Shown here piece by piece: positions 18,512 to 49,123 of a stretch of DNA of 64,000 nucleotides. Position numbers and translations under genes: made by a program. This DNA comes from Saccoglossus kowalevskii (taxonomy: Eukaryota; Hemichordata; Enteropneusta; Harrimaniidae). The stretch's first letter is position 1, and every line of letters begins with the position of its first letter. The notes beneath the pieces were generated by a model that did no database searches, was not told where the DNA came from, and saw only the letters and a program-made list of their open reading frames with translations. The stretch lies in contig NW_003135357.1 of NCBI RefSeq assembly GCF_000003605.2, positions 43,840 to 107,839 on the forward strand, written 5' to 3'.

Positions 18512-21500
18512 CTAATACACGTCACCGAGTTGCATCCTTCCACTTCGCCAAGTTGCAAGTTTGACCACATTTACATTTGACGCATGTGATTGCATTTCCA
18601 GTAGGAAGTGGCTGATTAGCGTGTAACTTATAGCTGGGTCGAAATGAATATTGACCATTGTACGTTTAGCCCAGGGAGGAACCAATGCTCCGATGGTGAC
18701 ATAACGGTCGTTGTAGTCGGTCACCTGCAATGGGTCCGTATTCCAATGCTTCATGCAGCTACGAATCTAGGGAAAAATGTATAGGTATTGCATTACATAC
18801 ATATTGATATTACAATTAAATGTCAAACAAACTAGGACTACGTTTGCAATTTTTGATTTTGGTAGTATTGTAATTTCCAAACTGCTCAATTTATCGATTT
18901 CTTTTGATAGTACAGTCATATATAATAATAAACGCAAATTTGAAAGAAACAAGACAGGTCGTTATGACGAAAGTTATGACATGGGCGATGCATGGTTCGC
19001 CCCTTTTTATATAAACGCAGTTGTATATAGCAGTAATTATATTACAATTTCTGTAAAACGCGTATTAATGTTTTTTTTTTAATTTAAGAATTGATGATAA
19101 AAACATTAAAGTTAAACAGTATTTAAATATGCTCATCATTGCCTCTTTAATTTATCCGCGAATGCGCGGGGATGGATGAATTACAAACAGTGTTATAATG
19201 TTTGTAACAACTTTGGAGGCATATCTTAATTTTTGAAATACTTAATAAATAAATCGGTTTAATCTTTACCTCACAACAGCAGAAACAATAGAAGCAAAAA
19301 CAACATAACTTAGCACACTTGCTACAGGTATCCTTCGTTCCAATGATTCTTGTAGTTACTTTGGATCCAATAGATGAATGGAAGTCTACACTTAGAAACC
19401 CTTCAATGGGCAGGGTTTTCAAATGCAGATTGTCACCACAAAACGTCTCAACCGAATATTTGTTGGAATACGACCTTGTTGATTTTGCTTTTTGCAATTT
19501 ATAAAGACTCAAATCTGTCAAAGAAGAACTTTGTGATAATTATGCCAATTTTCTACAAAAATGCTTAATGTTGCCACACTCAAACTTATAAAAGCTGCAA
19601 TTGAAATCAGTTTGCAAAGTGTAACTGTAACAAGCTAATGTTACAGTAGTAAATAAGGCGAATCGGACAGTCGTAAACAAGATAAATCATCACAGAAATT
19701 GAAAGAATTGAGAGATATCGCCGCCATGGTTATTGAATTGAAATTATTGAATTACCTGCCGTTTCCCCTGCTGAAAGTAGCAGTAAACGTTGATTTGTGA
19801 GTAATGCTTTCCCTTTGCGCATAGTTGGACAGTCTGTGTCCGCTTCACCGCTCTCATCAAGAAACTCCACTGAAGTGTAGGGAATGAACTGTCCGTCCAA
19901 CAGTGCCTGTTCACCTGTCATAACTAAATCTGTTGATTTAATTCAGGTGATATATCAGATTACAATATGTACTTCTTCTGAAATTTGTATTTGTAAAATA
20001 TTTGTGCAGGTGATCGTGTGTCCATGCGATGTTGGAATGAGTACAATTGCCTACACGTATGGACGAAGATACAAACTATGTGCTTAGATTTTTACGAAAT
20101 ATGCAATAACACTCACTATCTAGCATGGCATCGTAGCAGACATTTTCATGATGCGATCCATAACGTTGATACGCTATGTCGTACATTTTTCTGCCATTCT
20201 CAATCAGACACTCTTCCAGCATGTCGTGGCTTTTATGTTCTTTCAACACCTTTTCCATGAGTGCTTTCGAAGTCAAATCGATCATATTTTCGTCGAATTC
20301 TGGCGGCAGAGTACCTTTTCCTGGTCGAGGTTGAGAAGATACTGCATCGTGCCCGATCTGTATACATTGTGAGCATTTTATTGTCAGGATTTGAAAGTGT
20401 ATATATTACACCATATCGCACATTTTGGGCTGGTGACATATGATGAAATATTATATATATATATCTCGTGCCCGATTACCGGGATACGTTTTGTTATCCT
20501 GCATTGCTTAACAAAAGTAGAGTTTAAAAAGTGGACGAATTCAATACAAATCTAATTTAGGTTTCCTAATAACACAGTTAGTAACCTTGATTTAATCAGC
20601 AACACGAACAACCTAACGATAAACAGACAATTTAAATGAAAGTTTGAAATCGGGAAATTCTAAATATTAAGCCAGGAGAAACAATGCCACTATATGCAGT
20701 GGAAATAACACCATACCCTATCAAAATCTAGACGTTTTGCGACGTTCATGACCTCACGCTAGCACGTATCAACCATGATAGATGAAAAGATGGACGAATT
20801 GTCGTGAACGACTAATAAATATTTCCCTTCTATTACACTGTGTGGACGATAAAACCCACTGCAGACGGAGTCACAACTGGATTCGCCAGCGTAATTCACT
20901 ATAGTGTACGTTTTTAAAAACATCCTCTCCCCAAAATTTTAATTTACCTGTGGCAATCTAAACTCGGCGGTAGTCATTGGTGGAATCATTCTACCCATTG
21001 TAAACGCTTCAGTGACGTCATCCTGATTGTTGTAACGAGACTCTGGTGTTTCCGTCTGGTGTGCTAATACATTAGGTTGAGGTATATGAAAGCCCTACAA
21101 AAATAATAAAATATTAATGTTTTGGGGAATCTATACATCGCCACAGTTGGCATATATCGCCACAGTCGTCGTCACCCCACGGTCCTGTCACATTGCCACA
21201 GTCGTCACGCATCGCCAGCAGTTGCCTAGCGTCGATTCAGTCGTCACTCAGCGCTGCAATTATCACCCAAAGCGCCTTAGAATTACGTGTAAAACAAACA
21301 ATATATATATATACATATGCACATTGAACAAGACGCTCACAAAGTTTAGTATTTAACCACTTTTACCGCATAGCAATACAGCTGATGCTGGGTATTGACG
21401 ATGCGTTGCACAAATAAAAAACAACAACAACAAAACAACAACAACACGGTTTGTGATTTTGTACGTGCAGGGCAAGTGAGATCGAAATTTTAGAGGTCGT

Positions 21501-24529: not shown

Positions 24530-27500
24530 TTAAGGGTGTCGAGCATTGGCATTCCAACTCGCCAGTTTTACCACGTTTAGATTTGGTGCATATAGTTGCA
24601 TTTCCGACAGAAATTGGGTAATGAATGAGAAACGCATCGTGGAATCGAAGTTGATCTTGATCATGGTACGCTTTGCCCAGGGTGGGATCAGAGCTCCGAT
24701 CATAACGTATCGATTGTTATGAACGTTCACTTCGAAAGGTTCGGCGTCCCATTTCTTCATGCAACTACGAATCTGTTAGGAAGTTAGGAAATAAACACTG
24801 AATTAAGACGTACTAATTGTATTAATAGTCACAAAAACTATTATAGTTTACTGGTCCGGGCAGCAAATGTCATAGGTCATCCGTCAAAAGATTATTTGTG
24901 ATTAAAGAAAATACTATATGGATAGTCGTACATGTTGAAAGCGTAAGGTCATGTTTGATTTAAAAGCGGTGGCCATATAGTGTACAGTATTGTATACTAG
25001 TATTGGAAATACTGTATCCGATTGTCTCCCTGGATGCAAACAGTTTTAACATGCCCAGATGTGTGACCTTTGGGGTCATAATGCAGATGTTCTATCGACT
25101 ACTTACTTCACAGCAGCAGAAACAGTAGAAACAGAAACAGCATATCTTCGCCCATCTCGCACAGCAGCCTTTACTTCCGATTATCTCGGTTTTCGTGTTA
25201 GCACCACTGGACGCCTGTAGCTCTACGCTGAGAAATCCCTCGATGGGAAAAGTTGCGTACTGAAGATCATCACTGCATGACGTCTCCAGAGAATATCTGT
25301 TATGGTGTGATTTACTTTTCTGATTCGTATTATTTGGTGGCACTTTCTGTGAATTTTTCTCCACTTTGGAAAAGGAAACCTCTGTCGAGAAACATGCAAA
25401 TAGTCAGAGTAACTCTCTTTTAAATAAGACTGTCTTGACAGACGCAATGTATCATGTTTAATTCACTCATATCCCGGGGTAATTTCCGCAATTAATAAGG
25501 TAGTGTAGTACTACATACCTGCAGTATCCTCGTTCGAGAGGAGCAACAACCGGTGCGTAGTTAGATAGGCTCTCCCCTTACACATCGGAACTCTTGTTGG
25601 CACTGCCTTGCCGTTTTCATCCAGAAACTCGACGGATGTATAATAAATATATTGGCCATTTACTAACAGTGTCTCGTCTTTCATTAATAGATCTTGATAT
25701 AAGTGTAAAGCAAACAATAGGTATTAGTTGCGTTCGCACAAGCTCCTCAGTACGGGGTAAGAGGTCTAACATGAAAATCAAAGGGCGGCAGTCGTCACGC
25801 CGCGTCCTGTTCGATAGGGGACTCATAGCGACGTATACAACGCGTGTAAAATACATTGTTTATTTACATGAAATTCGAACACGCGCTGCGCGACGACCAC
25901 CGCGCTTTAACGTGAGCATATCCACATACACTTTTCTGGTGAAAAAATGGGCCGATGATGAGATTCTATTACCAGTTATTTTGTAATCCACACTCTCCGA
26001 ATATACATTGTTATAGTTTTATAACCATAACAATAACGTATAAAGCATCCTAGTTACTGTACCAAGTAATCCTAGTTAAAACTTGAGGACTGACGATTTT
26101 TGTATATTCTTAACAACATTGGGTGTTCTTTAGCTCGTGTTAAATGTGGCAATTGGGTATAGCCGATATGCAAACATATATTATTTGCTTAAATCTTAGT
26201 CCGTACTTGGCGTAAGTTTGAACACGACTATTACTAGTGACAAGAGGTCGATTATCTATGCATAGGATTACGCCTAGTTAAATTGTTACACGTGACGCTG
26301 CTGAACCTTGCAGTCACAGCGCCCTCACCGAATATTAGACACGAGCGACGAGGGCGCATGTAAGTCGATTTGCTTCTTTGAACAACTTGAATTAAAGATA
26401 ATATGCACACAATAACTCCTTAAATATTTTGAATAGGTATTTTGATCTGTAAAAATATGAAACCTGACGTGGTTTCTACATCAGTATTCCATGTATTCTT
26501 GAAATAACTATGGCGTTAAGAGAAGGACAAATAAAGAGGAACTCACGATCCATTATTGCTTCATGGCTCAGGTGGTCGTGCTGAGATTTGTAGTCATGAT
26601 AAGACAATGCGTAAGCTTCCCGGGCTGTTTGTTGAACACGTTCGTTTAACACTGATCTACTTTTGTGTCGCTTCATAATCTGTTTCAAGACCGCCTGTGA
26701 AACGGGGCTGATGACACCTTCGTTGAATTCAGGTGATATTGCATCCCGGGATGATTTAGGTTGCGTTGCTATGGTAGCACTTGTGAGCTGCAAAGTACGA
26801 ACATATGAATTCAATCGGCAAATTTTCGAAGCGTGTTAGATGTAAGTATCTAAATATATCTCGGAATGTACAATTTGTTTTCCTCGTGACTCTTTGGCGC
26901 TATAATTAATGAATGATTTAATTATTCAATAACCTAAATAATGAAATTTTAGAATGATTCATTCATTAGTAAGAATTTATTGAACTAGTCGACTAAAGGT
27001 CTTTTTGGTTGCTTAATTGATTGAATAGAATCGATATGCAGCACGGCAATATCACGGATAGACGACACCTTGCATCAATGAACACATTGTAAATACCTCT
27101 AGCTGATTTGACACTGGTGCTGTCGTTTTCTGTTTTGCTTTTAACTTTGGATTGCCACGCACACCATCGCCAAGTTCATCATTCAGCTTTGCCGCTACAA
27201 TGCCAAATTCTCCTTGGTGACCGGCACCACCTCTGTCCTGTCCACACGTTGATGCTCTAGCAAAAGGTATTTGAAATCCCTGGGAAAATGACAATCATAT
27301 CAGTGTTAGAACATCCAATTTTACATAAAAACGCTCAGTATAGAACAGAGTGGGCGATGGAATACAAAGTAATAACCTTGGGACATCATACATACGAAAA
27401 CAGTAACACGCCACTAAAACCTATTATCTCTAGGTTGTGGCATTTCTTCTTCAACAAAAAAACTCTTGCAGCTCTCTGCAAACCCGCGAAAAAGCAAAAC

Positions 27501-27545
27501 AGTGATTATTACATATGTTTTTATAATCGTCAGCTGTATAACAAT

Positions 27546-27597
<52 letters not shown>

Positions 27598-28372
27598 CGC
27601 GTTTAGTTCACAACATGGCAGTGCATTAGACATCGTGCTCGATGAACATTTAAGTTTAAAGAGCTGTATTCAGAAAGTGAGTTGGTATCTAATTATATGT
27701 AAAAAAAAAAGTATCAATACAAATATATAATTCGAGTTTATCTGTCAAAGTAAGCGGCGTCATATATATTGTTTGTTCTCACCTGGAACCAGAGTCCCCG
27801 GGACGAAAGGACCAGACGGAAGAACCTAAACGGGTGTGATAACAGCCCGGTCAATCCGTGACCAATCTCGGCAGTCACATAATGAGAGAATAGTCGATAT
27901 TACGTATCACATAACACATCCTTTACTTCTTACAGCGTTCTGGGTTCTATCAATGTAACGCGAATACGTTTTCTTTGTCCCTTTTGACATATAACGATTA
28001 ATGATAACAATCATTTCATATCATGGAGGCATTTAGCCAAGCAGTAAAAGACTTGGCGAAAAGCGTCACCAAATGTGAACCACGAATATTCAATATTACG
28101 TACCACGTGAAATTCTTTTACATTTTTGGCCGTTTTGATGCTCGCATCGCATAGATACGGCGCCAGGGAGATATTTATTCTATCAGGGATTGACCATTAA
28201 AATTAAAATTTAGCAAAATTATTAAATGTATATTTACGAAAAAAATGAGGCACATTTAATAAAATAAAAGCAATATCACCCTGAAAAAAAAATCCGAAGA
28301 ACAAAGTAATTTAGATGTATTTACCATCCCGCCACCCATGTTTTCAGTTGGTGAAGGCAATGTTTTCTTCAT
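24530..28372 (-). CDS. Tandem family copy 2: PH/GRAM-like, cysteine-anchored protein
   Basis: Exons 2-6 are well supported: 27279-27097, 26787-26547, 25692-25519, 25381-25107, 24772-24530 (TAA), 371 residues. Exon lengths of 241 and 174 nt equal those in copy 1 and all phases agree. Exon 1 is tentative: 28372-28325 would add 16 residues ending GGGM before a GTAAAT donor in the right phase; an in-frame ATG at 28450 could lengthen it. Landmarks are YIYYTSVEFLDENG, KGRAYLTTHRLLLLS, TFPIEGFLSVELQ, the cysteine run CCFCFYCFCCCE and IGALIPPWAKRTM. Exon 2 begins GFQIP, close to GFHIP in copy 1, but is glycine-rich afterwards. The intron between exons 3 and 4 carries a MITE. Confidence 0.8.
25782..25906. 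mobile_element. TTAA-type MITE, diverged copy 3
   Basis: The left end AGGGCGGCAGTCGTCACGC follows TCAA (25778-25781). The right end, inverted, reads AGCGCGGTGGTCGTCGCGC and is followed by TTAA (25907-25910). The ends resemble those of the elements at 5268 and 12178, but the 125-bp interior differs. It lies in the intron between exons 3 and 4 of family copy 2. The longer open frames crossing it are chance. Confidence 0.5.
27546..27597. repeat. (AAC)n microsatellite
   Basis: About 17 uninterrupted AAC/CAA units. They create open frames rich in Asn (plus strand) and Cys (minus strand) that are not genes. The repeat is in the first intron of family copy 2. Confidence 0.95.
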
Positions 28373-28994: not shown

Positions 28995-29028
28995 ACCACG
29001 GTCACTAATCTCTTTTAGTAACCGTGGT
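28995..29028. repeat. Imperfect 14-bp hairpin
   Basis: ACCACGGTCACTAA pairs with TTAGTAACCGTGGT across a 6-base loop, with a single mismatch. No open reading context or known motif was recognised. Confidence 0.55.
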
Positions 29029-29659
29029 ATAACAGATAAAACCCGATTATTTGCTATTTTCTAATTAGGAGAGACATCTACAGAAGGAGTAAACAGGCGC
29101 GTATTGATATTTATTTTACTGAAGTTCAAAACGCTCATAGGTAAAGCATGCGTTATGCGATACTGATCTTATTTGTTCTGGGTCATTACGCAGTGGCCGC
29201 GATTGGCTACTGAAACCGGTCCGTCTGTCCCTGGTCCTTCGCGGTTCCCCGTTTTAGTGAGCACCTGCGCAATTATCTAAGAGTGGTCGCCGACATGCAC
29301 GGTCTTTATGAGCGGTTCTGAAATGCATCATGGTGTATCCTTCTATGTTTACACGCCACCGAGTCAACACAATACACTGTCCAATACAATACAGACATCA
29401 GGTTATGGCGCCTATCGCGATCGGAATTCAGTATTAATACGTTCAGTAGAAACAAATAAAATAATCAACATTTGAATTGGAATGTTAAAATCCCTCACCG
29501 TGATGTCCATAACGACATTATTAGTCAGAATTTCGCATACACAAAACCAGATTATCACACCTTGTACCGTATAGTAGTAGACTTACCATTTTTGAGTCTT
29601 GGCCTTCATTTCTGTACGGAAGTGAAGGCCTGTCCTGTACGTTCTCGTAGAATCCACGC

Positions 29660-31345
29660 TGGTTGTAAAACGAGGGATTGTGAACCATGCTTTTGTATGA
29701 TGAATTTGTAACACGTTCAATGTTAGGCTAGTGCCGTCGTGTGAATTGCTTGTTGTGGTAGAGGTGCACTAGGTGTGGTGTCTCGGGTCACTGGTGTATA
29801 AAAGTAAGTATGTTCCCAATTGTTATGTAAAGAAATGTACTCGAGCGCAGTTCAACAATATGTCTTAGTCCTTTCTCGTACAATTTTAATAAATACGTAA
29901 TTTATTCTGCATGTTACAGTAAATTGGAATCTGCTAATGGGCCGGGAACGACCGACGGGTGTTGGTAATTGGAATTAACTAACTGCATCCACTTTGCTCA
30001 CTGAATGTTAAAGCTGCAATAGCTTCGATTTCAAGCATTTAAAAAAAATATATAATCAAATAAAGATGACCTAATCTCACCGAAATATTGTTTTAGACAC
30101 AATCGGTATGGGAAAAGAACCCTGCACATGGCTAATATCACGTGAAATGCGATGTGAAAACTAAGGGTTGAGTAAATAAGCTTATTTTTACTGCACGACA
30201 CTCACAATTATGGGAAATAACACATAAAATCGTCTGTGGGAGGCCCTCAGAGAGAGAGAGAGACTTAGCTACTCAAGGTCGCGAAGTATTTGACATTTTG
30301 CCTAGGCCCCCCGGTAAAGTTGACATCTTGTACAGTAAAATTGGATTTCAATAGATCGCGCCCTCTGGAGACCCGGACACAACCTCGCGGCGGCCATGAC
30401 CCAAATTTTTAAATCATCGACATTCTATCCGGATGCGCCCGAAGTTGAAGTCAAAGTTCAGCGTTCTTATGATGTAGTTGTTACCTTGACGGCTTTACAA
30501 CAGTATCCGGCAATACGCGAAACAATAGTCAACCGGTGTTATGACGTTTTGAGAGGGCGATACCATTTCGAGTTCAAAAATGAAATCGCTTGAACATTGT
30601 AGCAGACTTTCGGCTTTTCACACGTCACTCGAGATCCCGCAGTGTGCGGAAAATCACCTATTCCACGTCTTCCGAGTGTAATCGGTCGCATAGTCACAAC
30701 TGTTGGTCGATATTTTGTCGCCGTGAATTAAACATGTCTCATTGTTCGCGTTCAGCCGACCGACTCTTTAAAACTGCTGATCAACAAAGAACCGGCCGAC
30801 TACAGACGGTCGTGTACTTTCACTTTAAAACTAGATTAAACACATACAATAACGAAACATATCTCACGGTACATCAGATAAGGTTGCCAAGGCGGTCTCG
30901 TGAACCCAAAAGTGAGCACCGATTGGACGTTGACCATCATGTCAAGACAATCGCTGACGAACCGCGAAAACATAATTTTCCGAAAATCGGCATTTCGCAT
31001 ATGCACACATGGCGTGCAACGTAAAACGAGGGGTTGTGAACCGTACTTCGGCATGAATTCATAACACGTTCGATGGTGGGCTGGTTCTGTGGTGTGAATT
31101 GCTTGTTGTTATAGAGGTCGACTTGAAAGTGCGCTTGGTGTGGTGTTTCGGCTCACTTGTTATGTAAAGAAATGTATTTTTCTAGCGCAGTTGAACAGCA
31201 TATGATGTTGTTCTTTGTCGTACTATTTCAATAAATACGTGATTTATTATACGTGCTACAGTAATTTAAAATGGAACCTACTAATGGGCTGGGGAACGAC
31301 CGACGGGTGTTGGTAATTACATTAACTAACGGAATCCATGTCACA
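29660..31345 (+). repeat. Pair of diverged direct repeats (about 330 bp, unit B)
   Basis: The segment at about 29660-29995 recurs at about 31015-31345. Shared words include GTGTGAATTGCTTGTTGT, TTATGTAAAGAAATGTA, AATAAATACG and GAACGACCGACGGGTGTTGG. The copies differ by many substitutions and short indels, so the duplication is old. Each contains an AATAAA and ends near ATTAACTAAC. They may be the ends or internal units of a transposon, or an old tandem repeat. Confidence 0.6.
30358..30371 (-). promoter_or_regulatory. CTCF-like motif
   Basis: The minus strand reads TCTCCAGAGGGCGC, matching 12 of 14 positions of the CTCF core CCASYAGRKGGCRS. It is a sequence match only; occupancy is unknown. 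Confidence 0.3.
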
Positions 31346-32412: not shown

Positions 32413-32445
32413 CGCAACGCAACGCAACGCAACGGAACGCAACGC
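32413..32445. repeat. (CGCAA)n microsatellite
   Basis: Six to seven CGCAA units with one interruption (GGAACG). Confidence 0.85.
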
Positions 32446-34137
32446 TTCAGTTGCAATTTTCTATGTGATCGAATTACTAAAATACTAATAATAATATATC
32501 TTATCAAAAAAGCGCAATGCCACGAAATTGGGTGTAAAATGTTGCCGACTGACTCATGGCTACGCAATTGCGCCACCAACGGCAAACTTAGCCTAAATTC
32601 GGTAAATCGTACAGCCATCAATTCGTGCAATAGAATGTGTCACTATTTAAGTTTACGCCCTGCTTGGTGATGGCCATCTTTGTGTATATACTACAAGCAT
32701 ATTACTCTTACGCAACTTCGAAAAACCGATCGTTACAAGCGACGGCATTGGCGTTTTGTTCACAAAGTGCCAACCAACTTAACGGACTCGGTGATATCTG
32801 GAAACTGCAGTTGCTGTAGAATGATTCATAAAATCTAATAAATGGCAGTGAATATATTATTAACTTTAATATATGTTGCAGACTCATGTACCAATAACAT
32901 TAAGTGATACATAAACATTAATGACACGTGACCGATAATACATTACAATGAATAATAATTACAATATATTAGAATAAATTAAAGTTCATGTTTGTCGATG
33001 GTCTAAATATGTAAAACAACATTGCATAATTGATAGTTGATCATGTAGTCCAAGTATACATTCTCTAGGTCGGCCACTATTTTAAAACTCAATCTGCCAC
33101 CTTTCGCGAGTCTGTATTCCATTCAGATGAGCTGAATAATCATATAACTAATCAACTACAGTGGGAAATCTTAGGGAGAGTTCTGGTTTTCAGAAAAAGA
33201 AATAATTATATTAAAAATACATTTTTGTGGACAGCGTTGTAATAAATTGGCTACACACAATTAAATAAGATTGTCATAGGTATACTTAATGCTTTTTTAT
33301 TGCCATGTGAAGTTCATCTGAATTACAGTTAAGCTTTCTTTCTACTTTAGAACACTTTACGAATGACAATATGATTTGATAATAATGGCAACAAATCATT
33401 AATACATTTGAACTTTTATTATGTTAGTATGTGTACTCGCATGTACACATCCATCATCGAATAGTATGTAATATATTATCCGATTGGAAAACACATATAT
33501 GTGTGTTCTCTTGGCATGAGATATTTTTTTAAAACTACTAGTGACAACACGTCACAGACGGAAATCCGATAAATTAAGATTTAAAATCTAACATGATAAT
33601 CTAGAGACAAAAATTTATCTTTGGGTCCGTGATAAAAAATAAGCAACGTTGCCAAAACGTAAATAACCACATTGTATTTGGTATAATTATGATAGTTCAA
33701 ACACATATTATATTGTAGGATAACAAGTAAGGTCATTTTTCTTCAACAGCAATGTACTGAAGTGAAACACGTACACATAAGCATTATCCAAATAATCCAA
33801 CAATCAAAACACATTCTCGATTAAGGCCTTTAAATTTGCAAAGGGAAACAAAACAAAACGTGGATTAATAATGCTATAACCGCCGTATGATTACATAATG
33901 GAATGACGCAGCTACCAATCCAAGGTGGTTTCTTTTGAAATGGAGGCCACACTTCTGTCGGACAATTGAAACCAAATCAAAAAAGCTGACATATTATGAA
34001 AGACGATCACTATACTGTGATCATTGTCAAATTGATTACTGTGTAGATTACTGCGTAAATTACTGTGGATATTAAATGCCTGTCTTTCAAGAAGGTTATT
34101 ACCAAGGACCACAGACTTTTGATATGTAAATTTTAGG

Positions 34138-37100
34138 TCAGTTTTTGTAAGTATCCCAACTACCCGGTTTTAATTTATTCAAGTTAGGTGCGTGTCTTTG
34201 CACTTCTGACAGAAAAGTGTTGACGAATGACAATCGCATAGTGGGGTCAAAATATAACGTCACCATGGTACGTTTACCCCAAGGGGGCATCAACGTTCCG
34301 ATGGTAACATGTCTGTTGTTATGGCCCGATATCTCGTACGGTGTTGCATCCCAACTCTTCATACAGGAAAGAATCTAAGAATCAATAAATAAACAAAATA
34401 TAATATAAAGAAACTGAAATGTTTAAGGAAAGGCAAGTTGCAGACTCTATAGTAAATGGCGTTGTCACGTTTGTACGACATAATGTGCCTATCACAGCAA
34501 AACATATCCACTAGTTCACATTATGAGGGTATTAACGAATACAATATTGCAGTTAACTATGTATGAATGACTGCTAATCTACCAACCTCACAGCAACACA
34601 AGCAATGTAGGCAGGGACACAGTGTATCACAACATTCACTGCAATCACCTTTACTGCCTTCGATAGTGGTCTTGGAAGTAACTCCCATCGACGAATGCAG
34701 TTCGACACTTTGGAAACCATCAATTGGGAGAGTGGTATAGTTCAGAACGTCACTGCAAAATGTCTCCAGAAAATACCTTTTAGGTTTTTTCTTAAGTTCT
34801 TCAGGCTTCGTGAGTATAGTACCTGTAACAAAGAGTAAGAGTGTTTTGCTATTAAATATTGATGTCTGTTAAATTATCAAACCAATTTGTGGAATGAGCA
34901 TATATATTGAGTCGTTCTAAGCAAGTGCTAATTTAACACTAGCTTGGCGATTTCAATATCAACGAACGATTAATGAAGAAATGTTAAATTGAAAAAGATA
35001 GGTACATTATTCATATTATATCCACATGGCTTTTTGGATGAATGTTAATACATGTTATTATACATCTGTCGCCGTAACGCCATAAGTTACAGCGTGACGT
35101 AATTTTGCGGTATTGCACCGCGTATTTTCATCCTACCATATTAGGAAACGTGAATTCCAAATATGAAACGATTATGCGCGTAAGTGCCCTGCAATAATAA
35201 AAAGGAAACATGGCTGCACCCAGGGTTTAACCGGAACNNNNNNNNNNNNNNNNNNNNNNNNNNNNNNNNNNNNNNNNNNNNNNNNNNGTTTTGGATTTGG
35301 GCCTTGCTATGATGTATTCCTGGGAGGAAAAGATCTTTAATAATAAGGTTAATACGAGGATACTGCAATATATGCACGAAGACAGTACAGCGGGAGTATC
35401 GAACGATCCACAGCAGAGGGCGATGCGACGACGTACTGTCTGAATAATAACCTCATAGTATCACCTGCAGTGTCTTCAGCCGACAACAATAGCAGTCTTC
35501 GCGTAGTAAGAAATGCTCTTCCTTTAGTCATATCATTTTTTCCTGGGATCTCATTCCCGTCCTCATCGTGAAATGTAACATGCGTGTAATAAATGTATTC
35601 ATTATTCACTAAAACTCTCTCGTTTTCGATAAGCAGACCTGTGAGTAATAGAATACAAATACAATTAACGACGACAAACTGTAATGAGTGCTTTACCATC
35701 ACGTTCACACACTCCTTCCTAATTACAATATTTATGTGAAGAGAACCCTGAACAAAAACGTAATCGATAGTTTATTAATAAAAGTTTAAAATACTTGTAT
35801 GTCATATACCGCTCATAAATACTTCTGTGAATACAATGTTAAGGAGTGTAGTAGAGGTTACCAGGAAGTAAAATTTACACAAAATATTTCGTAAATTTTC
35901 TTTTAACCTTATCAAAATATATATTTCATTAACGCTCATAATTTACACTAATTAAAAATCGATGCATATGTTACGTTGGATGAAACTTGGTTATGTGACT
36001 GAATCAAATCCTTCATTGAAGATTCCAATGGTTACTGTGTATTTTGCTTAAATTTTTTGTATATTTTTTGTGTTTTCACCAAAATATGTACTACATTCTA
36101 AGAGCACTTTGTTGTTTTACTTTTATTATTTGCTTATCTTTGATTTTAACTTATATTGATCTTTTGGTTTATTAGGTACTGTTTACAATATTACTTTCTA
36201 TGCGAAACTGGTCTGTAAGTTGGTAAGTTGCCAGAAGTACGTTGGTCGCTGGACTCGTTCACTGTGATGTTGGCTGGTTTGATGCGTTAGTAAGGTGTAT
36301 TTCTAAAATGTCAGAAGACATTTGTTGGTTTGTTGTGATGGTTCGATGCTTAGTAAGATGTACTGTGATTACAAACCAATATTCTGTCTATATCTCGTGA
36401 CAATCGCATTCATACTCACTGTCGATAAGATCTTCGTAACTCAAGTTGTCATGCTGAGTTTGGTAATTGCGGAAAGCTCCTTTATACATCTCTCGTGCAT
36501 TCTCTTTAACACACTCTTGTAACACCTTGTAACTTTTATGCTGCCTCATCACTGCTTGGATAACATTTTGTGACTTTGGATCTAGCATGCTGTCATCAAA
36601 CTGGGATGGTATGGTAGCTAGAGCTCCTTTGGGTTGACTTGTAACAGCCGCCGCTGACGATTTCACTTTCTGATTCAAAGAACAATGGTGATGAAAATAA
36701 ATCGATGTAAGAAACTCAAATTGTTGATGCTGATGTGATAGGGTCATCTCACCACACTAGTACACTAACCGAGGACGTATGCTAATGTGGATAATATGGA
36801 GTAGGAGGTCATTATTGAGAGGATAGAATGTAACTCGTTTTTTGTTTGTTGTACTTGTATATGAAGGTGGCACAGACACATAATGTGACATTTAGACATG
36901 AATATTGTAGACCTTGGTATGTTCTTCTTTCTTTACATCTCTGTCATAATATTCTAGAAGATCTTTAGGTTCTTCAACTATTATATCTTCTTTTGACGTC
37001 AACATCGACGTGTGCACCTAAGACAGAAACATGAATAATTGAATTATAACGCTCAATAATATGTGCTATTATGAACCATATACTTCTCCTTAAGACATTG

Positions 37101-40058
37101 CTTAGATTGCAGATATTTACATAGACCAGATATTTACCGGTGGCATTATCTAGTTACTCAATCACTGCAATGAATAAAACGAGTTGATTTCATCAATCAC
37201 TAAACTTACTGGGGGCTCCGTTTTCATGTGTGTATAGCTGGTTTGCTGAGCAGACATCATTCTAGGAGTTACTCCATCATAACCATGTAACATATCTGTG
37301 TCTGCGTAGTGGATCTCTCCCTGAATAATACAAGCAAAAATCATGCCAGTCAACATCGCTCCTTTTGCCGTTGTTCGGATTTACTTCATTAGATATCCAA
37401 TCTTATTGTTTTCTTTTCCGCCATTATTTTTGTGATCTTGTATGAGAAAACCGATGAATGTAAATGAATGTAATTGTTCTGTGATGTCAAGGAATAATAT
37501 AGTGCCCGTGATTTTCAAATTGTTATTGGCACATGATTCGACGACCATATTACTGTAAAGCAAACCCGGAAGTAGTATATTCAACATACTTGGGGGGGGG
37601 CATTATTGTCGTAGCATCATTGGTAATTGTAGTACATTTAGTATTAAAACAAATAACATAGCATATTTTAAAATATTAGTTTTTGAAATATCGCTTTGAA
37701 ATTTTATTGCACCACTGATACATTTTACCAATAATATGAATAAAAAATAAAGTTTTGAAAAACGTTCAACACCTTATTAATTTCATAAAAACAATCCAGA
37801 AATGCTTAACTTAAATCATGGGTTAGAACAATCGAGACGAGTTAAAGAATGAGGTGACACGTCTAGCTTGAAAAAGTAGCTATTTTACTGCCATAGTAGT
37901 ATGCCAACAAATCCAACATCAATAAATACATCTCTGGTCAATCACATTACTGTAATTTTATTTGAATGAAATAACTGCGAAACAATGTTCAAATTAGTAA
38001 AGTAAATATTATAATTACACGAGTTATTAGACTGCATTGTTTGAGACAATATTTTGCATTTCTCATTCACTTGAAATAAACCTAATTTTGATATATAAAT
38101 ACCAAGTTCAGAAATTTGTAATGGTATATACAAAGATGAGAAAAAAGTTGTCAAATACCTTTGTTTCGATTGCCCATTTCATAAATAAGAATGCACACCT
38201 GTTTTTCTTTAATCCCCCAACGCGTTGTCGGGCCTGGTTGACATTTTGCTCTTGTAATTCAAAGTTATGAAATTCTCACTCACATTTTGACAGTTGTTTG
38301 AACGCAAATTTTTGCCGTTTGGTGGGTTTTTAAATAGAGTGCAGATCAAGAAAATCGATGGTTACCTATTGTTTGTTAAGTAGTTCATGATTCAATATTT
38401 ACATATGAACTGTCAATTGTGACTTCAACGGTGACCATGGGTGAAAAATATGTATTTGTATATAAAAGTGTTTGCATAGAAGGATCAGCCGGCAAATAGT
38501 TAATACCAGAGAATGGAACCAGCAGAGGTTGGGTTCGAACTAACACGCAACGTCACTGATATACACAGGGCGCCCTTAAGCTGCATCGCCTTGGTGACAG
38601 CTTTTAAAAATATACAAGTCAAACAATTTGTTGATTACTATGCAAACATGCCGACCAGCCACAAGTATCAGTCTCTGTTATAAACGTCAGCGTCTAGACA
38701 ATTTATGCTATAAATTTATAACGTAGGATAGGCACTGTTATACAAAGAAACGCACATAAGCCGAGGTTATGAATTTATAGCGTAGGTCAAGCATTGTTAT
38801 AAATTGCGACGCATAGATGGCTAAGGATGCACATATACAAAGTAATCCAAATTTTCTACAGAACCAGGGTAGCTGAAAATGTTTACTGTTTGATTTCATA
38901 TAAGTCTCATTCATATAATTCTATATGAAAAGAAATAGGGTTGTGTTGTACAACAAATATCGACCATAAAATTAGTCCCTCAGATTAATTTATCGAAAAA
39001 TGGCATAACATGATTTTTAAAAATCTTTAAAAACACTAACCACACTGATTTGAAATTTGATTTGTGCACATAAAAGAGCTTTAATTTTTGTGAATTGATT
39101 CAGGATTGGTCATGCTTTCATCATTGATTTAAGAACACTTGGAAGTAGTCTCTTTTACACTATTTCGATATTCTCAGCATTGAAATGCTTATTAAGATTA
39201 TCACATACGCATGTATACATTTAAAACACCACATTGCTTTTGGTACAGTAATAATGTACTGAAAACATGAAATACAACGTTTTCTATAATTGAATTTAAT
39301 TGTTTTTCTAGTTTCCCACAAACACGCATATAATCACTTCTGTGGGGTGGGCTATCGTACATCGGTAGCATCGTCGTGATCAACTTTGGATTATGCGAAC
39401 TATCAATTTTGTGAAATTTAGTCAAGCTTTTGTGAAAAGTAACTGAGCTCGTTTTTAACACAACCATTACACCACATTTTGTCTGTGCAAACAAAAATAT
39501 AGTTAATAAGTAATATGCACTTTGCACTCTACTAAATATATTAGTTGTTAAGCTAACTTTGCGAGTTTAGGATTATTGTGAGTAGACATAAAATTCGTAG
39601 AAGAATAAAAACGACCATTTTTGAAAACACCCTTCTTGTGTATTACCTATTCGTTCTTATGTTGACTGACTGTTTTCAACAGACAGTTTTTAAAGACAGT
39701 GTCCCAAACATGATATATTCATGAATTTCCTCAACTTTATTTACAACTTGTTCGTAAAACTATAATATTTGTGTAACCCAGTACGTCTTACTAACCCACT
39801 ATTAGTGTCCCCATTTTATTGGTTTTATTATACCGAGGAAAGATTATATTTTTCACGTACTGTGTGAAACTGAACATCGCTAGCGAAAAACGCGATTGAG
39901 TGAAACCAAATACTTACCGATACGTCTCTCATTTCAAGATAGCTTGAATCCAAGATGGGGGGTAGGTTTGCCTTATTTACGTCCCTTTTCAAGCCAGTAT
40001 AATAGTTCGAGACTCCAACATTTTCACCGACATCCAGATCGAATGATGAATTCTGCAT
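34138..40058 (-). CDS. Tandem family copy 3: PH/GRAM-like, cysteine-anchored protein
   Basis: Seven exons: 40058-39918, 37320-37210, 37017-36913, 36669-36420, 35638-35465, 34822-34587, 34374-34138, giving 417 residues in frame. Copies 3 and 4 have one exon more than copies 1 and 2: the 105-nt acidic exon 3 (EDIIVEEPKDLLEYYDRD). Its donor is taken as AAG/GTCTAC, because the alternative GTAAAG inside the exon is not conserved in copy 4. Exon 1 ends PPILDSSYLEMRDVS. The PH/GRAM-like part has YIYYTHVTFHDEDG, KGRAFLTTRRLLLLS and LPIDGFQSVELHSS. The cysteine cluster is CSECCDTLCPCLHCLCCCE. The end is IGTLMPPWGKRTMVTLYFD plus helix. A 50-N gap falls in the intron between exons 5 and 6. The function is unknown; I infer a cytosolic-face membrane protein. 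Confidence 0.85.
35238..35287. other. Assembly gap (50 N)
   Basis: Exactly 50 N in an intron of family copy 3. The equal length of both gaps in the window suggests a fixed placeholder, so true sizes are unknown. The flanking intron sequence (35100-35237 and 35288-35440) has no clear match in unit B. Confidence 0.98.
39380..39528. promoter_or_regulatory. Intron-1 block unusually conserved between duplicates
   Basis: 39380-39528 matches 48417-48556 with only about three to six differences, while sequence on both sides has many substitutions and indels. It contains CAATTTTGTGAAATTTAG and GAGCTCGTTTTTAACACAAC. An open frame in unit A is frame-shifted in unit B, so conservation is more likely regulatory, or an undetected non-coding exon. 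Confidence 0.4.
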
Positions 40059-40179
40059 TTTGTATAGATATATTGTGTCTTAGTTAGCTTCTGTTTGTGA
40101 CCGACTCAGCAACGTTACAAGCAAATATATATTACTGCACACGGAAGTTATAAACTACGGATAAGGTGGCGTGTTAACG

Positions 40180-40196
40180 CGCTGCAATTGGTCAAA
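40180..40196 (-). promoter_or_regulatory. Conserved CCAAT element upstream of copy 3
   Basis: The plus strand reads CGCTGCAATTGGTCAAA, about 130 bp above the start codon of copy 3. The same 17 bases occur about 110 bp above copy 4 (49229-49245). On the coding strand it holds CCAAT. It is a likely promoter element of both recent copies; I found no equivalent above copies 1 and 2. Confidence 0.45.
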
Positions 40197-40573
40197 TTTT
40201 GAAGTTAAAGCTTTCATTAATGTTCGCGTGACCACATATATACTTGAACTTTGACACGTTGATAGTGGTCGTTCGCAAAGATAAAGCTACACTTTCTGGT
40301 CGCCATTGTTAGTTCTGGTAGTTTATCACTTTATCGCCATTTTACAGTTTCGTGGATATGTATCACTCATAATGACTCAGAGGTAGGAATTGATGTTTAT
40401 ATTCCGTAAATTTGTCTCTGTTTCTTGTTGGTAAAGAATTTTCGGATATTTACCGAAACAGAGACAGCTGCTAGGTCGAAGTCATATATTTAAGAGAATG
40501 CGTTGCGCAGTAGCGAAATAAAGGCATTGTTTTACGGCCTTCGTGTCATCCATCTGGTTATAATAGTGTGTTG

Positions 40574-40587
40574 TCGCTAGAGGGCGC
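40574..40587 (+). promoter_or_regulatory. CTCF-like motif, unit A
   Basis: TCGCTAGAGGGCGC matches 12 of 14 positions of the CTCF core. The matching site in unit B (49706-49719, TCGCTTGAGGGCGC) loses one more position. It lies upstream of the promoter side of copy 3. Confidence 0.35.
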
Positions 40588-43380
40588 TATTTACAGGAAA
40601 GGGGTATTTCAAGTTATTTTTTAGAATTTTTGGGAATACACATTCATACCGTGAACATTCAAAAAACCAAACGTGGTGTAATCGTAATCAGATTAAAAGC
40701 ATTGTGTGCAAGTTGAAATGACAAATATAACAATAAGACAATAAGTATTTCGCAATTCGCAGATGCACAAATAAAGATGAGTAAAACATCAGTCAGCACC
40801 GGTGCAACTACACGTTTTACGTAATACGTACTTACACCCGTGCTGTTAACCCGTCTTCCTTCAACAGGATTTCACATTTTAAACCCCTTCAACGTCGGCG
40901 TAACTTGTTCACATTTGTTCCTCTCAAAGAGACACAAAAACAGATATGAACGCACGCCCACCTATTCATAGGAATTAGTAAACGAATTAAAACTTGTCAA
41001 GTTCGTTTTTTTGTTCTCATCTTTATCTTTATTTTATGTGATTGGAAACAATCGTTATGAATAGTAAACGTATACTTGGGACTTTGTACTCTTGCTCAAC
41101 CAATTTCTACGTCTCGGGACGACTGTTACAAATCTTGGCCACATTTGCTTAGTTTTACTAGAATTAAGGACTTGTTTTTTACAAAGCTAACGGGTATGTT
41201 TCAGTTCTGAAGGAAAACGAGGCTTATTTTCATTTAAACAATAAGTAATTCCCCATGGAACAGTGCTAAAAAGACGGCCATATTTAAAAACAAAATTGGG
41301 TTCAAATTTTATAATTTTGTTGAAATCTTTGAGCCAGCTTCGTCTCATTGTCTCCTTAATGGCGGACGTGAATATAATATTTACTTTAATATATGTTGTG
41401 GACCCATTATCCAATAAAATTAAGTGATAAATAAATGTTGATGACACGTGGCAGATATTACATTACAAGGAATAATAATTAGTGTACAATAGAATAAATT
41501 AAAGTTAAAGTTGGTCGATGATCGAAATATGGCAAACAATGATGCTAATGACATGTTAACTTGCTTGACCTGTGAACTCCCTGTTGTTGATCATGTAGTC
41601 AGGCACGGGCATAACTAGCTACATTACCAGAATGAAGTATGCATTCTCCAGCACGGCCACTATTTTAAAACTAAATCTGTTGCCTTTAGCGAGTGTGTAT
41701 TCCATTCAGATGCGTGAGGGCGCTCAGTTGAATAATTACACAACCAATCAACTACAGCGGCGAATGTAAGGGGAGAGTTCTGGTGGTCAGGAAAAGGAAG
41801 TAATTAATTAAAAGTGCATTTTCGTGGACAGTGTTGTAATAAATTGGCTACACACAATTAAAAAAGCTTGTCATTGGTATACTTAATGTTTTTTAATGCC
41901 ATGTGAAAAACATCAGAATTACAGTTAAGAATGTAGTAGAGGTTTTTTTCTTTGAAAATATCATTTTTTTTTTCAAATTCTCTTATAAGAATATACAACC
42001 CATGCACTCAACTAAAAAAACAAAACAATTGTATCCATGGTTTAAGAGTGTAATACATTTTGAGTAAATCTGAAATACAGTGTGTTTTATGTTTTTTGTG
42101 ATTTTTCACGCTTAAGTAAACATCGGTATTTGTGGTTAGTCTGGAGAGTTGATCTCGACTCCCAGCTGCTCCACGACAGTGATTTTTGGCATAGGTATTC
42201 TCTAATAGCTAATGAAATCTGGCAAAGATAGTTTGTCAACCACTTTTACTTCAAAAAATACGACACAACTCTTCCCTTTGTTAACTCTGACAAGGGTTAT
42301 CATATTTCAAAACAACGTTGACGATTATTTTAAAAATTGTTATGAGGTTAAAATCTAGGTCACGCAACAGTAGATGAACTGGCAAATTGAATTCAAACCT
42401 TTTATAGTATCTCTAAGTACCGTGAAATCCATTTCTGTTGCCTTATTTCGGCTTCTTCGAAGATAACACCTCTCTATTTGCACAGTGAACACGTGATTCA
42501 TTTCATAATATTTGAGAAATAAGTTTTCTAAAAATACATAACTTGATGGGATTCAAAGAATATGATACTTCAGAAATGTGCTATGTAATTGCAATAACCT
42601 TTACTACATCCTTAAGTTTCTAGTTTAGGACAAATGCCCGTATGATTTGATAATAATGACAACAATTCCTTAATACATTTGAACTTTTATTATGTTAGTA
42701 TGTGTACTCGCATGTACATACCCATCATCGAATAGTATGTAATATATTATCCGATTGGAAAACACATATATGTGTGTTCTCTTGGCATGAAACATTTGTT
42801 AAAAACTACTAGTCACTACACGTTACATTCGGAAATCCGATAAACTGAGATTTGAAATCGGACATGATCATTCAGAGACAACTATTTATCTTTGGGTCCG
42901 TGAGAAAAAATAAGCAACGTTGTCAAAACGTAAATAACCACATTGTACCATACAGATATTATTTTGTAGGTAACAAGGGAAGTAATTTTTCTTCAACAGA
43001 AAGTCGGACACATATGCATTACCCAAATTATTATCCAACAATCAAACCACATTTACGATTAAGGCCTTTAAAGTTGCAAAAGGAGACAAAACAAAACATG
43101 GATTAATAATGCTATAACTGTCAAATGGTTACATAATTGAATGATGCAGCTACCACCAGTTTTTTTTTTTAAATGGAGACCACACTGAATTGAAATCAAA
43201 TTAAAATGCTGATATAATATGAAAGTTTTTTGTTAAAGTTCGTGTCTAGACGATCCCTATACTGTGATCACCGTACAATTTATTGCTGTGTACATTACTG
43301 CGTGTACATTAAATGCACGTTTCTCCAGTAGGTTATTACCAAAGGTCAACACGACTAACTAATTTTTGCGAATGTTTAAG

Positions 43381-46300
43381 TTAGTTTTTGTAAGTTTCCC
43401 AGCTACCCGGTTTTAATTTATTCAAGTTGGGTGCATGTCTTTGCACTTCTGACAAGAAAGTGTTGACGAATGACAATCGCATAGTGGGGTCGAAATATAA
43501 CGTCACCATGGTACGTTTACCCCAAGGGGGCATCAACGTTCCAATGATAACATGTCTTTTGTTATGGCCAGATATCTCGTACGGTGTTGCATCCCAACTC
43601 TTCATACAGGAAAGAATCTAAGAATCAAAGAATAACAAAAATATAATTTATATAAACTGAAATGTTTAAGGAAAGGAAAATTGCAGACTAGCTATAGTAA
43701 ATAGCGTTGTCACGTTTAAACGACATAACGTGCCTATCACAGCAAAAATATATCCACAAATCTATAATATGAGGGTATTAACGAATACAATATTGAGGTT
43801 AACTATGTATGAGTGACTGCTAACTACCAACCTCACAGCAACACAAGCAATGTAGGCAGGGACACAGTGTATCACAACATTCACTGCAATCACCTTTACT
43901 GCCTTCGATAATGGTCTTGGAAGTAACTCCCATCGACGAATGCAGTTCGACACTTTGGAAACCAACAATTGGGAGAGAGGTATAATTCAGTACGTCACTG
44001 CAAAATGTCTCCAGAAAATACCTATTAGGTTTCTTTTTCAGTTCTTCAGGCTTTGTGAGTATAGTACCTGTAAGAAAAAGCAAGAATCTTTTGCTATTGA
44101 ATTTTGATCTATGTTAAATTATCGAACCAGTTTGTGCAATGTGCATATAATATATTGAGTTGTTCCCGGCACGACCAAATTGTACACAGACGACTGTATA
44201 ATTTTGTTAATATCACGCATAGTACATCACAGACATATAACACAGACTTTTTACAGGATAACACTAATCAAATAAAATGATTTCCCAACGTAGTATCCTT
44301 TTCCATCGACATCATCAAAAACAACATCAGAGTTTGTGGTACATAAGATGTAGTGATTGACACTAGAAAGATTGATGAAGAAATGTTGAATTGAAAAAAA
44401 TAGGTACATATTCTGATTATATCAACATGATTGTTGGATGTATGTTAATACATAGTATCACCTGCAGTGTCTTCAGCCGACAACAATAGCAGTCTTTGCG
44501 TAGTAAGGAATGCTCTTCCTTTAGTCATATCATTTTTTCCTGGGATCTCATTCCAGTCCTCATCGTGAAATGTAACATGCGTGTAATAAATATATTCGTT
44601 ATTCACTAAAACTCTTTCGTTTTCGATAAGCAGACCTGTGAGTAATAGAAAACACACTTAACTACGACTAACTGTAACATGTATGTGCAATCCAATTGTG
44701 CTTTACCCCCACGTTTACATACGCCTTTCAATTTGTGATATTTTCCAGACCGTAAGCCGATGTATAACCAATTACAATGTTTATGTAAAGAAAAACAGAT
44801 AAAACACGTGAACACGTGAAAGAAATCGATAGTTTACTAATATAAGAATGAAATACTAGTATATCATTTACAGCTCATAGATATACTATGAATACAATGT
44901 TAATGATTGTAGTAGAGGTTACCAGGAAGTAAAATTTACACAAACTATTTCATAGATTTTTTGAAACCTTATCAGTATATATTTTATGAAGCTTATAATT
45001 TATACTAATTAAAAATCGATGTTACGTAGGATGCAAACTTCGTCATGTGACTGCTTGTCAGCATCCTTTACTCGATGTTTTTGCCATATAACCTCAAACC
45101 CTGCAAATAGAAGTGTACATGGAATCATGGGACGAAACGGTGTGCATTGACGTGTGATAACTGTCATACAAGTGATTGACAGGTCATACTTGTTTAGAAC
45201 TCTGGATGGACAATTGGAATCTACCAGGTGTGCTTGTGATTTACATAACAAAGGATGTTTACGATCTACTGACTTGCCTACTTGATACAGCTGTTAGCAA
45301 AAACACATTCTGATTGGCCAATGTGGAATTCCAGGTGGTGTCCCTGAATCCGGGCCATTTAGGCCTATTCATAGAGGAGAATAAGGGTCCATCATTCGTT
45401 ACTGCTTACAAAATGTACTTTTTATGTGCAACCAGTCTGAAAGTTGGTATAATTTGGTTATGTTTAAAATGTCAGAATTAGGTTGGTCGCTTGGCTGGCT
45501 TGATGTGATGGTGGCTGGTTTGATGCTTAGTAAGATGTATTTTTGCTAAGTTGGTATAATTTGGTGTTGATTGAAATGTCAGAAATTAGTTGATCTCTGG
45601 ACTAGTTTGTTGTGATGGTGGCTAGTATGTTGCTCAGTAAGATCTGTCTATATCTCGTGACAATCGCATTCATACTCACTGTCGATAAGATCTTCGTAAG
45701 TCAAGTTGTCATGCTGAGTTTGGTAATTGCGGAAGGCTCCTTTATACATCTCTCGTGCATTCTCCTTAACACACTCTTGTAACACATTGTAACTTTTATG
45801 CTGCCTCATCACTGCCTGGATAACATTTTGCGACTTTGGATCTAGCATGCTGTCATCAAACTTGGATGGTATGGTAGCTAGAGCTCCTTTGGGTTGACTT
45901 GTAACTGCTGCCGCTGACGATTTCACTTTCTGATTCAAAGACAATTATGACGAAAAATGTAAGAAACTGTAAATAGTAATATAGTTAATGATGATATGAT
46001 GGGATCATCTCACCACACTATTATACTCACTGGGGATTTGTACAAATTGGTTGGTAATATGGAGTAGGATGTAATTATTGAAAGGATTGAATGCAATTTT
46101 TGAATTGTCTGTTGTACTTGTATATCAAGGTGGTAAAGACACATTTTGACATTAAATATTGTAGACCTTGGTATGTTCTTCTTTCTTTTCATCTCTGTCA
46201 TAATATTCTAGAAGATCTTTAGGTTCTTCAACTATTAAATCTTCTTTTGACGTCAACATCAACGTGTGCACCTAAGACAGAAACATGAATAATTGAATTA

Positions 46301-49123
46301 TAACGCTCAATAATATGTGCTATTATGAACCATATACTTCTTCTTAAGACATTGCTTAGATTGCAGATATTTACATAGACCAGATATTTACCGGTGACAT
46401 TATCTAGTTATGCAACATTATGACCACTGCAATGAATAACAGGAGTTGATTTCATCAATTAATAAACTTACTGGTGGCTCCGTTTTCATGTGTGTATAGC
46501 TAGTTTGTTGAGCAGACTTCTTTCTAGGAGTTGCTCCATCATGACCATGTAACATATCTGTGCCTGGGATCTCTCCCTGAATAATACAAGCAACAATCAT
46601 GTAAGAAGCAAGCCAACGGAACTAGGGTTCTTTTTGTCTTTGTTTTGATTTACTTCATTCGATATCCATGCCTATGTTTTCCTATTTTTTTTCTTTTCCT
46701 GCCGTTACTATCGCGATCTTGTAGTGAGAAACCGAGGAATGTAATTGTTTTCTGATGTAAAGGAATAATATAGAGCACCTGATTTTCAAAACTGTGATTG
46801 ACACATGATTTGACGACCATATTGCTTTAAAGTAAACCCGGAAGTAGTCTATTCAACATACTTATTGTTGTAGCATCATTTGCAATTGTAGTGAATTTAA
46901 TATTCAAAATGCCATAACATATTTTCAAATATTTATTTTTGAAATAACAGATCACAACACTTTGAAATGTAGTGTTTACAGGGTTTATGGATGTTTTAAA
47001 ATTTGATCGCCTTTAGTCATATGATTCAGTGGCCATGCTGGATTTAAAAACAATGGCGTCTCAGCAATGTGAGATTTTTTATTGCAGCACTGATACGTTT
47101 TACCTATACCATGAATAAAAAATAAAGCATTGACAAACGTACACCACGTTATTATTTCACTTCATATGGAGACTTTGGAACCGAAAATAAAAACCATTTC
47201 AGCTACCCTGGTTCTAAAAGCATGCCATCATTATGTGTGTTTTGTTAATTATATTTTAAATATATTTAAATGTGTCTTTAAAATTAAATATATAATGTAT
47301 AAAACCACTTAGCTTTCATTGTAAATTTGCAATCTTAGCCATCTCTATGTATTGTATAACAATGCTTGTCCTACGCTATAGTTATACAAAGGCAGGTGGA
47401 CGACGCATGTTTGTACAGTGAATATTTCTGACCTAGTTCTATTCAAGTCCTCTGTAGCTTCATATGCATCGTGTCTGTACCACTGCTGGTTGTGCCAATC
47501 ACTCGTGGCATTCTCGAATATTGCCTATTTGCGGACTGGTCCATCTGTACACAATTGTTCATGCTATCAGTTTTCAACAAACAATCAACAACAATGGTAT
47601 ACACATGGCTGCATTGAACACTGACTTGATGACAGCTTTTGGAAATACACATGTCATACAATTCATTTTTTGATTACTGTGCAAACATGCCGACCCGCCA
47701 CAAGCTCCAGTCTCTGTTATACACGCCAGCACCTAAATGGCTTAGGCTATAAATTTATAACGTGGGCTAGACACTGTTATACAAAGAAACGCACATAAGC
47801 CGAGGTTATGAATTTATAGCGTAGGTCAAGAATTGCGACGCATAGATGGCTAAGGTTGCAAGCCATGTTCTCTTCAGAACCAGGGTAGCTGAACATGTTT
47901 ACTGTTTTATTTCAAAGTCCATATAGTTCTATCTTAAATGAATTAATGATGCGTTGTACAAAAAATATTGCCAATAAAAAACTAGTCCACATGATGAAAG
48001 ACATAACATGATTTTTCAAAAATCTTTAGAAACATTGACCACACTGATCTTGATTTGTGCACACAAATGTGTTTTAATATTTATGAATTGATTCAGGATT
48101 GGTCATGTTTTCATCGTTGATTTAGGAAAACTCGGAAGCACTCTCTTTCACACTATTTCGATTTTCTCAGCATTGAAATGCAGCCTATTAACAATATCAC
48201 TCATATATACATTGAAAACATCACATTATTTTGAAACAGTAATTTACAGAAACAATGGAATACAACGTAATGTTGTCTATAGGTGCTCTGTTGAATTAAA
48301 TTGAATTGTCTTTATACATTCCCATAGCCACTCATTAGTTATTGAAGACATTAATATAATCACTTCTGTAGGGTGGGCTACAGTGCATCGGTAGCATCGT
48401 TTGTGATCAACTTTGGATTTTGCGAACTATCAATTTTGTGAAATTTAGTCAAGCTTTTGTGAAAAGTAACTGAGCTCGTTTTTAACACAACCATTACACC
48501 ACATTTTGCCTGTGCAAACAAAAATATAGTTAATAAGTAATACGCACTTTGCACTGAGATAAATATATCAGTTGTTAAGCTAACTTTGTGAGTTTAGGCT
48601 TATTGTGGGTAGACATAGAATAATGGGTTTTTCGTAGAGGAAATAAAACGATTATTTCCCGATTAACGCCCGTTTTATGATATTACCTATTCGTTCTTAT
48701 GTCGGCTGACACTTTGCAACAGATTGTTTTTAAAGACAGTTTTCCAAACACGGTATATTCAGAAATGTGCTCACATTTATTTACAACTTGTTTGTTATAA
48801 GTAAAACTGCAATATTTGTGTCACCTTGTACGTCTCGCTAACCTAGTGTCCGTTGTTTTTGGTTTTTACTTCCGGGAGAACAGAATATATTTTTCACAAT
48901 CTGCGTGTTTAACTGTACATCGCTATAATTGGTTTTAGAAGTTGCGATATAGTCTGTGGCAAAACTTATTTGAGTGAAACCAAATACTCACCGATACGTC
49001 TCTCATTTCAAGATAGCTTGAATCCAGAATGGGCGGTTGATTTGTCTTAACTATGTCTTTTCTGAATCCAGTATATAAATAGTTCGATTCTCCAACACCG
49101 AGATCGAATGATGAATTATACAT
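43381..49123 (-). CDS. Tandem family copy 4: PH/GRAM-like, cysteine-anchored protein
   Basis: Seven exons: 49123-48992, 46576-46472, 46271-46167, 45929-45680, 44635-44462, 44067-43832, 43617-43381, giving 412 residues in frame. The start is set at MYNSSFDL to match copy 3 (MQNSSFDL), although an upstream in-frame ATG exists at 49204. Exons 3-7 differ from copy 3 at about 15 of some 330 residues by my count. Exons 1-2 differ heavily and by indels. All recognised elements are kept: VRDVS-ending exon 1 (as EMRDVS), the acidic exon 3, KGRAFLTTQRLLLLS, the cluster CSECCDTLCPCLHCLCCCE and LMPPWGKRTM. One GRAM-region change is striking: DEDG to DEDW. The gene looks intact and usable. Confidence 0.85.
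47195..47895. repeat. Foldback in intron 1 of copy 4
   Basis: TTCAGCTACCCTGGTTCT at about 47198 is the complement of AGAACCAGGGTAGCTGAA at about 47877. The inner parts (47325-47400 against 47750-47860, with GCGTAGG and GATGGCTAAG words) also pair. In unit A only the right arm is present (38640-38880), as two degenerate units of about 62 bp. The left arm therefore arrived or was lost after duplication. Confidence 0.5.

Follow-up and report, generated by a model that had tools for sequence, protein, structure and literature searches.

Tandem genes of the acorn worm Saccoglossus kowalevskii encode a cysteine cluster within a predicted PH/GRAM-like barrel

Gene organization of the locus

The DNA analyzed here (hereafter, the window) is a stretch of 64,000 nucleotides from contig NW_003135357.1 of Saccoglossus kowalevskii, in which a preliminary description had noticed four paralogous genes joining a PH/GRAM-like fold to a dense run of cysteines. 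Translation of the window showed that the minus strand from 49123 to 18512 contains four gene copies, exactly within the limits described before: the stop codon of copy 1 ends at 18512, and the ATG of copy 4 starts at 49123. Copies 3 and 4 are open over all five exons, with a starting ATG and a stop codon, and encode 345 and 342 residues; copies 1 and 2 read openly through the four matching core exons. The splice sites of the window copies are of the ordinary GT/AG type, and all exons given below lie on the minus strand.

In copy 1, exon 2 (20117..20357) encodes a helical region with the HKS motif, and exon 3 (19756..19929, 174 nt) encodes the first predicted barrel strands and the KG-LT-R-LLLS motif. 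Exon 4 (19270..19514) carries the cysteine run at its end (19273-19329). The last exon, exon 5 (18512..18766, acceptor CCCTAG), encodes SCMK, the PPW block, the C-terminal helix, and the stop. No first exon of copy 1 was found in the window.

Copy 2 could be assigned to an annotated gene. A protein search covering about 5.8 billion entries retrieved P0001 (LOC102803417, Saccoglossus kowalevskii), and six joined window exons give this protein exactly (405/405 residues identical); thus, copy 2 is LOC102803417. Its last exon lies at 24530..24772, the penultimate exon at 25107..25381 (cysteine run at 25110-25166), the 174-nt exon at 25519..25692, and the helical-region exon at 26547..26787. The NCBI model adds an upstream exon (GFQIPF...NQLE, 27097..27279) and a first coding exon (MVHNPSFY..., 29587..29688). 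The latter is uncertain and may be repeat-derived, because about 100 bases around it recur at 31021-31118 with 80% identity.

The exons of copies 3 and 4 are, respectively, exon 1 with the start ATG (39918..40058 and 48992..49123), exon 2 (36420..36669 and 45680..45929), the 174-nt exon 3 (35465..35638 and 44462..44635), exon 4 (34587..34822 and 43832..44067, cysteine runs at 34590-34646 and 43835-43891), and exon 5 (34138..34374 and 43381..43617). Copy 3 lies in a duplication unit (32848..40720, no strand assigned), pieces of which recur in order within 41368-49858, where copy 4 lies, with 78-94% identity. In addition, a 107-base unit is repeated 1.9 times at 45441-45643, just downstream of exon 2 of copy 4.

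The P0001 protein was also searched against the 572 Mb genome, in which the window lies on contig C2738. At least 22 matches were obtained, and the only other contig among the matches listed was C343, which encodes a fifth paralogue, LOC100372056 (P0006). The length of exon 3, described before as invariant, is 174 nt in all four window copies and in the fifth genome copy. The introns between exons 2 and 3, 3 and 4, and 4 and 5 have phases 1, 1, and 0 in all five genes. At the intron between exons 1 and 2, copies 3 and 4 share phase 0, as does copy 2 in the NCBI model. A similar exon 1 was found only for copies 3 and 4; the upstream exons of copy 2 in the NCBI model are unlike it.

Range and history of the family

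A single-sequence protein search found copy 2 and one Glandiceps protein, and a profile built from four core sequences retrieved two proteins each from Glandiceps and Ptychodera. With a profile of seven sequences, four members were added. Two were additional Ptychodera proteins (E 7.9e-81 and 5.1e-77), one was the fifth Saccoglossus gene, and the last was a protein from the coral Stylophora pistillata (E 3.8e-41) that stands for 13 member sequences. This search returned no further proteins up to E 10. Relatives from vertebrates, lancelets, and echinoderms were not found by these searches, which depend on shared 5-residue words and overlooked known members; P0001 itself was missed by both profile searches, so that absence from other groups is not implied.

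Since the coral protein belongs to the family, the family is not limited to this lineage, and the preliminary description was too narrow on this point. The proposed lineage expansion fits the four-gene tandem group, which looks Saccoglossus-side, but not the family as a whole. In a tree of 12 sequences, the four window copies formed one clade (95/95), with copies 1 and 2 and copies 3 and 4 as pairs (100/99 each). The fifth gene grouped with Glandiceps and Ptychodera proteins at a weak fork (82/90). Long branches lead to the coral protein and to P0007 in this tree, which is rooted at the midpoint only. The coral and acorn-worm members share the PPW, the K-x-W, and two cysteines; thus, the family probably predates the bilaterians, and would have been lost or missed in the groups between. 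The Ptychodera proteins P0004 and P0005 are paralogues with 92% identity and an equal length of the longest contig, which suggests an independent tandem duplication in Ptychodera.

The pairs in the window differ in age. Judged from their sequences, copies 3 and 4 are the product of a recent duplication of about 8 kb, with a synonymous divergence (dS) of 0.17 and a nonsynonymous to synonymous ratio (dN/dS) of 0.17. By the same kind of comparison, copies 1 and 2 are old. Their synonymous sites are saturated (proportion of synonymous differences, pS, 0.84) but the nonsynonymous proportion (pN) is 0.30, and so the proteins have been kept by selection. For dN/dS, only the pair of copies 3 and 4 gives a properly usable value; either of them compared with the fifth gene gives about 0.2 at a barely usable dS of about 2.9, and the other pairs are saturated.

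The cysteine cluster and the conserved blocks

The cysteine run reported before is real. In all four copies, the richest 19-residue window holds 9 cysteines, whereas the remainder of each core has 3 to 5. The chance of such a window at the background rate, with the number of windows taken into account, is 1.7e-8 for copy 1 and below 1e-9 for copies 2-4. The donor of exon 4 falls at the exact end of the run (CCCE), and one more cysteine, invariant in 12/12 sequences, opens exon 5. In the whole window, the only other stretch with at least 8 cysteines in 19 codons is a translated (AAC)n repeat (27508-27636). Its run of about 19 units at 27540-27597 translates to poly-cysteine in one frame of the minus strand and lies outside the family.

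As described before, the IG-L-PPW-KRTM segment follows the cysteine run in all four copies. Copies 1 and 2 differ by 7 nucleotides in the block CCFCFYCFCCCEIRSCMK and by none of its 18 amino acids, and the 20-residue windows in which their alignment is best conserved (19/20) fall in this block. Furthermore, the PPW, the K-x-W after the cluster, and two in-register cysteines are kept in all 12 distinct family sequences. The cluster loops of these sequences contain 5 to 11 cysteines together with 4 to 10 residues of F, Y, W, L, I, M, or V. Two cysteine columns are occupied in 12/12 sequences, one in 11/12, and two in 10/12. At several columns, cysteine is exchanged between relatives with F, L, S, P, T, and I. 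A strict four-cysteine site had been considered from 9 sequences; it came down to two columns after three relatives were added.

The cluster is also the most hydrophobic 19-residue window in each of the 12 sequences, although in P0007 it is nearly tied with a second window (hydropathy 1.27 versus 1.26). The usual level for a transmembrane helix is about 1.6, and no window in the hydropathy scan reached it. Among the 10 proteins scanned, copies 2 and 4 included, hydropathy revealed no clearly signal-like N-terminus; the highest 15-residue N-terminal mean was 0.86, in P0003.

Predicted fold and position of the cluster

Structure prediction agrees with the PH/GRAM-like fold that had been proposed. 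The predicted fold is a PH-GRAM barrel with a C-terminal helix, as in a GRAM domain, and a seven-stranded barrel capped by a C-terminal helix, as in the PH-like superfamily. In the model of the family member P0008, a strand ends at residue 231, strands resume at 250-253, 257-272, and 277-285, and a helix follows at 291-304. The cysteines at 234, 235, 239, 241, and 247 lie between strands in this model, and the PPW (273-275) forms the turn between the last two strands. Meanwhile, residues 178-389 of copy 2 map to residues 77-185 of MTMR2 in a comparison with the predicted structure. Because of this mapping, the segments flanking the cluster seem to form part of a single domain. The model and the mapping thus favor, as predictions, the earlier suggestion that the cluster sits inside the fold. 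The loop that carries it would be either beta5-beta6 or beta6-beta7; its geometry is not predicted in P0008, where the predicted local distance difference test score (pLDDT) is below 50 at 236-246.

Comparison with known families

No named family was recognized in the preliminary description, and the Pfam and NCBIfam libraries likewise gave none above the cut-off. PF02893 (GRAM) was unmatched at E up to 10 in three window copies and in nine family members. CheF-arch stayed below the cut-off in 2/9 members (best E 0.0013 in copy 2, 19 bits versus 25), and Vps36_ESCRT-II in 1/9 (copy 2, E 0.088, 13.4 bits versus 24.1); both matches fall on the barrel motif and are taken as hints only. Other matches below the cut-off were rejected: VPS13_C around the barrel motif of the coral protein (E 0.28), PH_MADD on the helical region of P0004 (E 0.081), and TFIIA on a proline-rich part. 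A sequence search of solved structures with the family profile listed the Taenia GRAM protein 8ujw at E 1.1. The same kind of search gave only a designed helical repeat for copy 4 (E 0.34), which was rejected, and no match for the coral protein. Taken together, no clear match to a known family was found, a PH-like barrel is present in the model, and the predictions give no sign of secretion, which agrees with the preliminary description.

The family resembles several known systems in part. One is the PH-GRAM domain of myotubularins (MTMR2), but in these short proteins no phosphatase domain was seen, there is no significant sequence match to it, and they carry the cysteine-rich insert. As for WBP2 and GRAM proteins, the KG-x-LT-x-R-x-x-x-LS motif is common to the family and 8ujw; however, the barrel is C-terminal in the present family, whereas the GRAM domain of WBP2 is N-terminal. 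WBP2 is described as carrying a PY motif (PMC5518133). In the 10 proteins scanned, single PY motifs occur in three, within a proline-rich N-terminus (PPAY in P0002 and P0004, LPPY in P0006), and none was found in the other seven, including copies 2 and 4. In none of these 10 was a WBP2-type C-terminal region found that is rich in proline and carries several PPxY motifs. It is possible that a WW-domain contact was lost in the tandem group.

GLUE is a split PH domain that binds phosphatidylinositol 3-phosphate (PtdIns3P) (PMC10049522), and in Vps36 a zinc finger is inserted in the split PH domain (PMC10936438). Whereas the Vps36 inserts are zinc fingers, the insert of the present family is short, hydrophobic, and packed with cysteines, and no ESCRT-II part was seen in these proteins. 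Dense cysteine clusters that are palmitoylated and set membrane association or location have been described for CSP (DNAJC5) (PMC4447612; PMC9712954) and PLSCR1 (PMC11854935). These belong, however, to J-domain co-chaperone and scramblase families. No palmitoylated cysteine cluster in a PH/GRAM domain appeared in a literature search of titles and abstract openings. The five gene identifiers had no match in the literature searched, where the family may be published under other names. The family is unnamed in the libraries searched, and its joining of two known elements is uncommon.

Other features of the window

On the minus strand, the window also contains a zinc carboxypeptidase exon (2-658; Peptidase_M14, E 2.5e-26) and a FAD_binding_4 exon (13224-13628, E 1.3e-8), possibly from a D-lactate dehydrogenase-like gene. 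A reverse transcriptase fragment lies at 63057-63518, minus strand (RVT_1, E 2.9e-14), and by eye the frames 62687-63187 and 63528-63890 look like parts of the same retroelement.

Proposed function

The preliminary description had interpreted the genes as membrane-anchored adaptors, and this interpretation as a whole is partly supported. The proteins are probably cell-internal, and S-acylation with a membrane-anchored adaptor role is plausible. We infer, with a modest preference over the alternatives, that they are cytosolic peripheral-membrane proteins in which the cluster is an S-acylation anchor inside the PH/GRAM barrel and the barrel recruits partners. A helical segment would be followed by the barrel, with the hydrophobic cluster in a barrel loop before the last two strands (the PPW hairpin) and the C-terminal helix. 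Cytosolic DHHC enzymes would put several fatty acids on the cluster, and the acylated loop would enter the membrane and hold the barrel to the bilayer. The barrel would recruit partners, as would, in some relatives, the proline-rich N-terminus with its PY motif. An S-acylated, membrane-inserting cytosolic loop is proposed because the loop is hydrophobic and dense in exchangeable cysteines, and clearly signal-like N-termini were not seen.

The columns fixed in 12/12 sequences, and the three more kept in 10 or 11, weigh against this proposal, and they make a metal site its chief rival. A zinc knuckle would then be set into a split PH/GRAM barrel and would serve protein binding rather than anchoring, for which Vps36 offers a precedent (PMC10936438). 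We consider this unlikely, though the most serious competitor. The middle cysteines shift and give way to F, L, S, P, and T among relatives, F, Y, and L abound in the stretch in copies 1 and 2, each protein is at its most hydrophobic there, and the Pfam matches listed up to E 10 include no zinc-finger family.

The hydrophobicity and the variable detail of the loop would also fit cytosolic cysteines that bear neither lipid nor metal, in a redox-sensitive loop or one that serves merely for hydrophobic packing or binding. This seems improbable to us, since the loops of coral and acorn-worm members alike keep 5 to 11 cysteines rather than other hydrophobic residues, and the block of copies 1 and 2 is unchanged at the protein level through its nucleotide changes. 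A secreted or extracellular domain with disulfide-paired cysteines is very improbable; only the high cysteine content speaks for it. Adjacent cysteines (CCC) are ill-suited to orderly pairing, the N-termini scanned are not clearly signal-like, and the predicted PH/GRAM fold is intracellular in the matched families.

The membrane association of PH and GRAM domains usually depends on reversible lipid contacts. On the S-acylation reading, we tentatively suggest, as somewhat less than an even prospect, that an undescribed animal family, perhaps predating the split between corals and deuterostomes, has a cysteine string grafted into a PH-GRAM barrel, and that cycles of acylation on this internal loop switch the protein between cytosol and membrane or gate a ligand site. 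Acorn worms would have duplicated the family repeatedly and changed the string. Although members occur in at least coral and acorn worm, none of the curated profiles matches the family above the cut-off. The natural paralogues, with 5 to 11 loop cysteines, would allow a direct test of the effect of acylation dose. If the suggestion is true, lipid reading and fatty-acid anchoring would be joined in one unit, with a multi-cysteine anchor within the fold of the domain itself.
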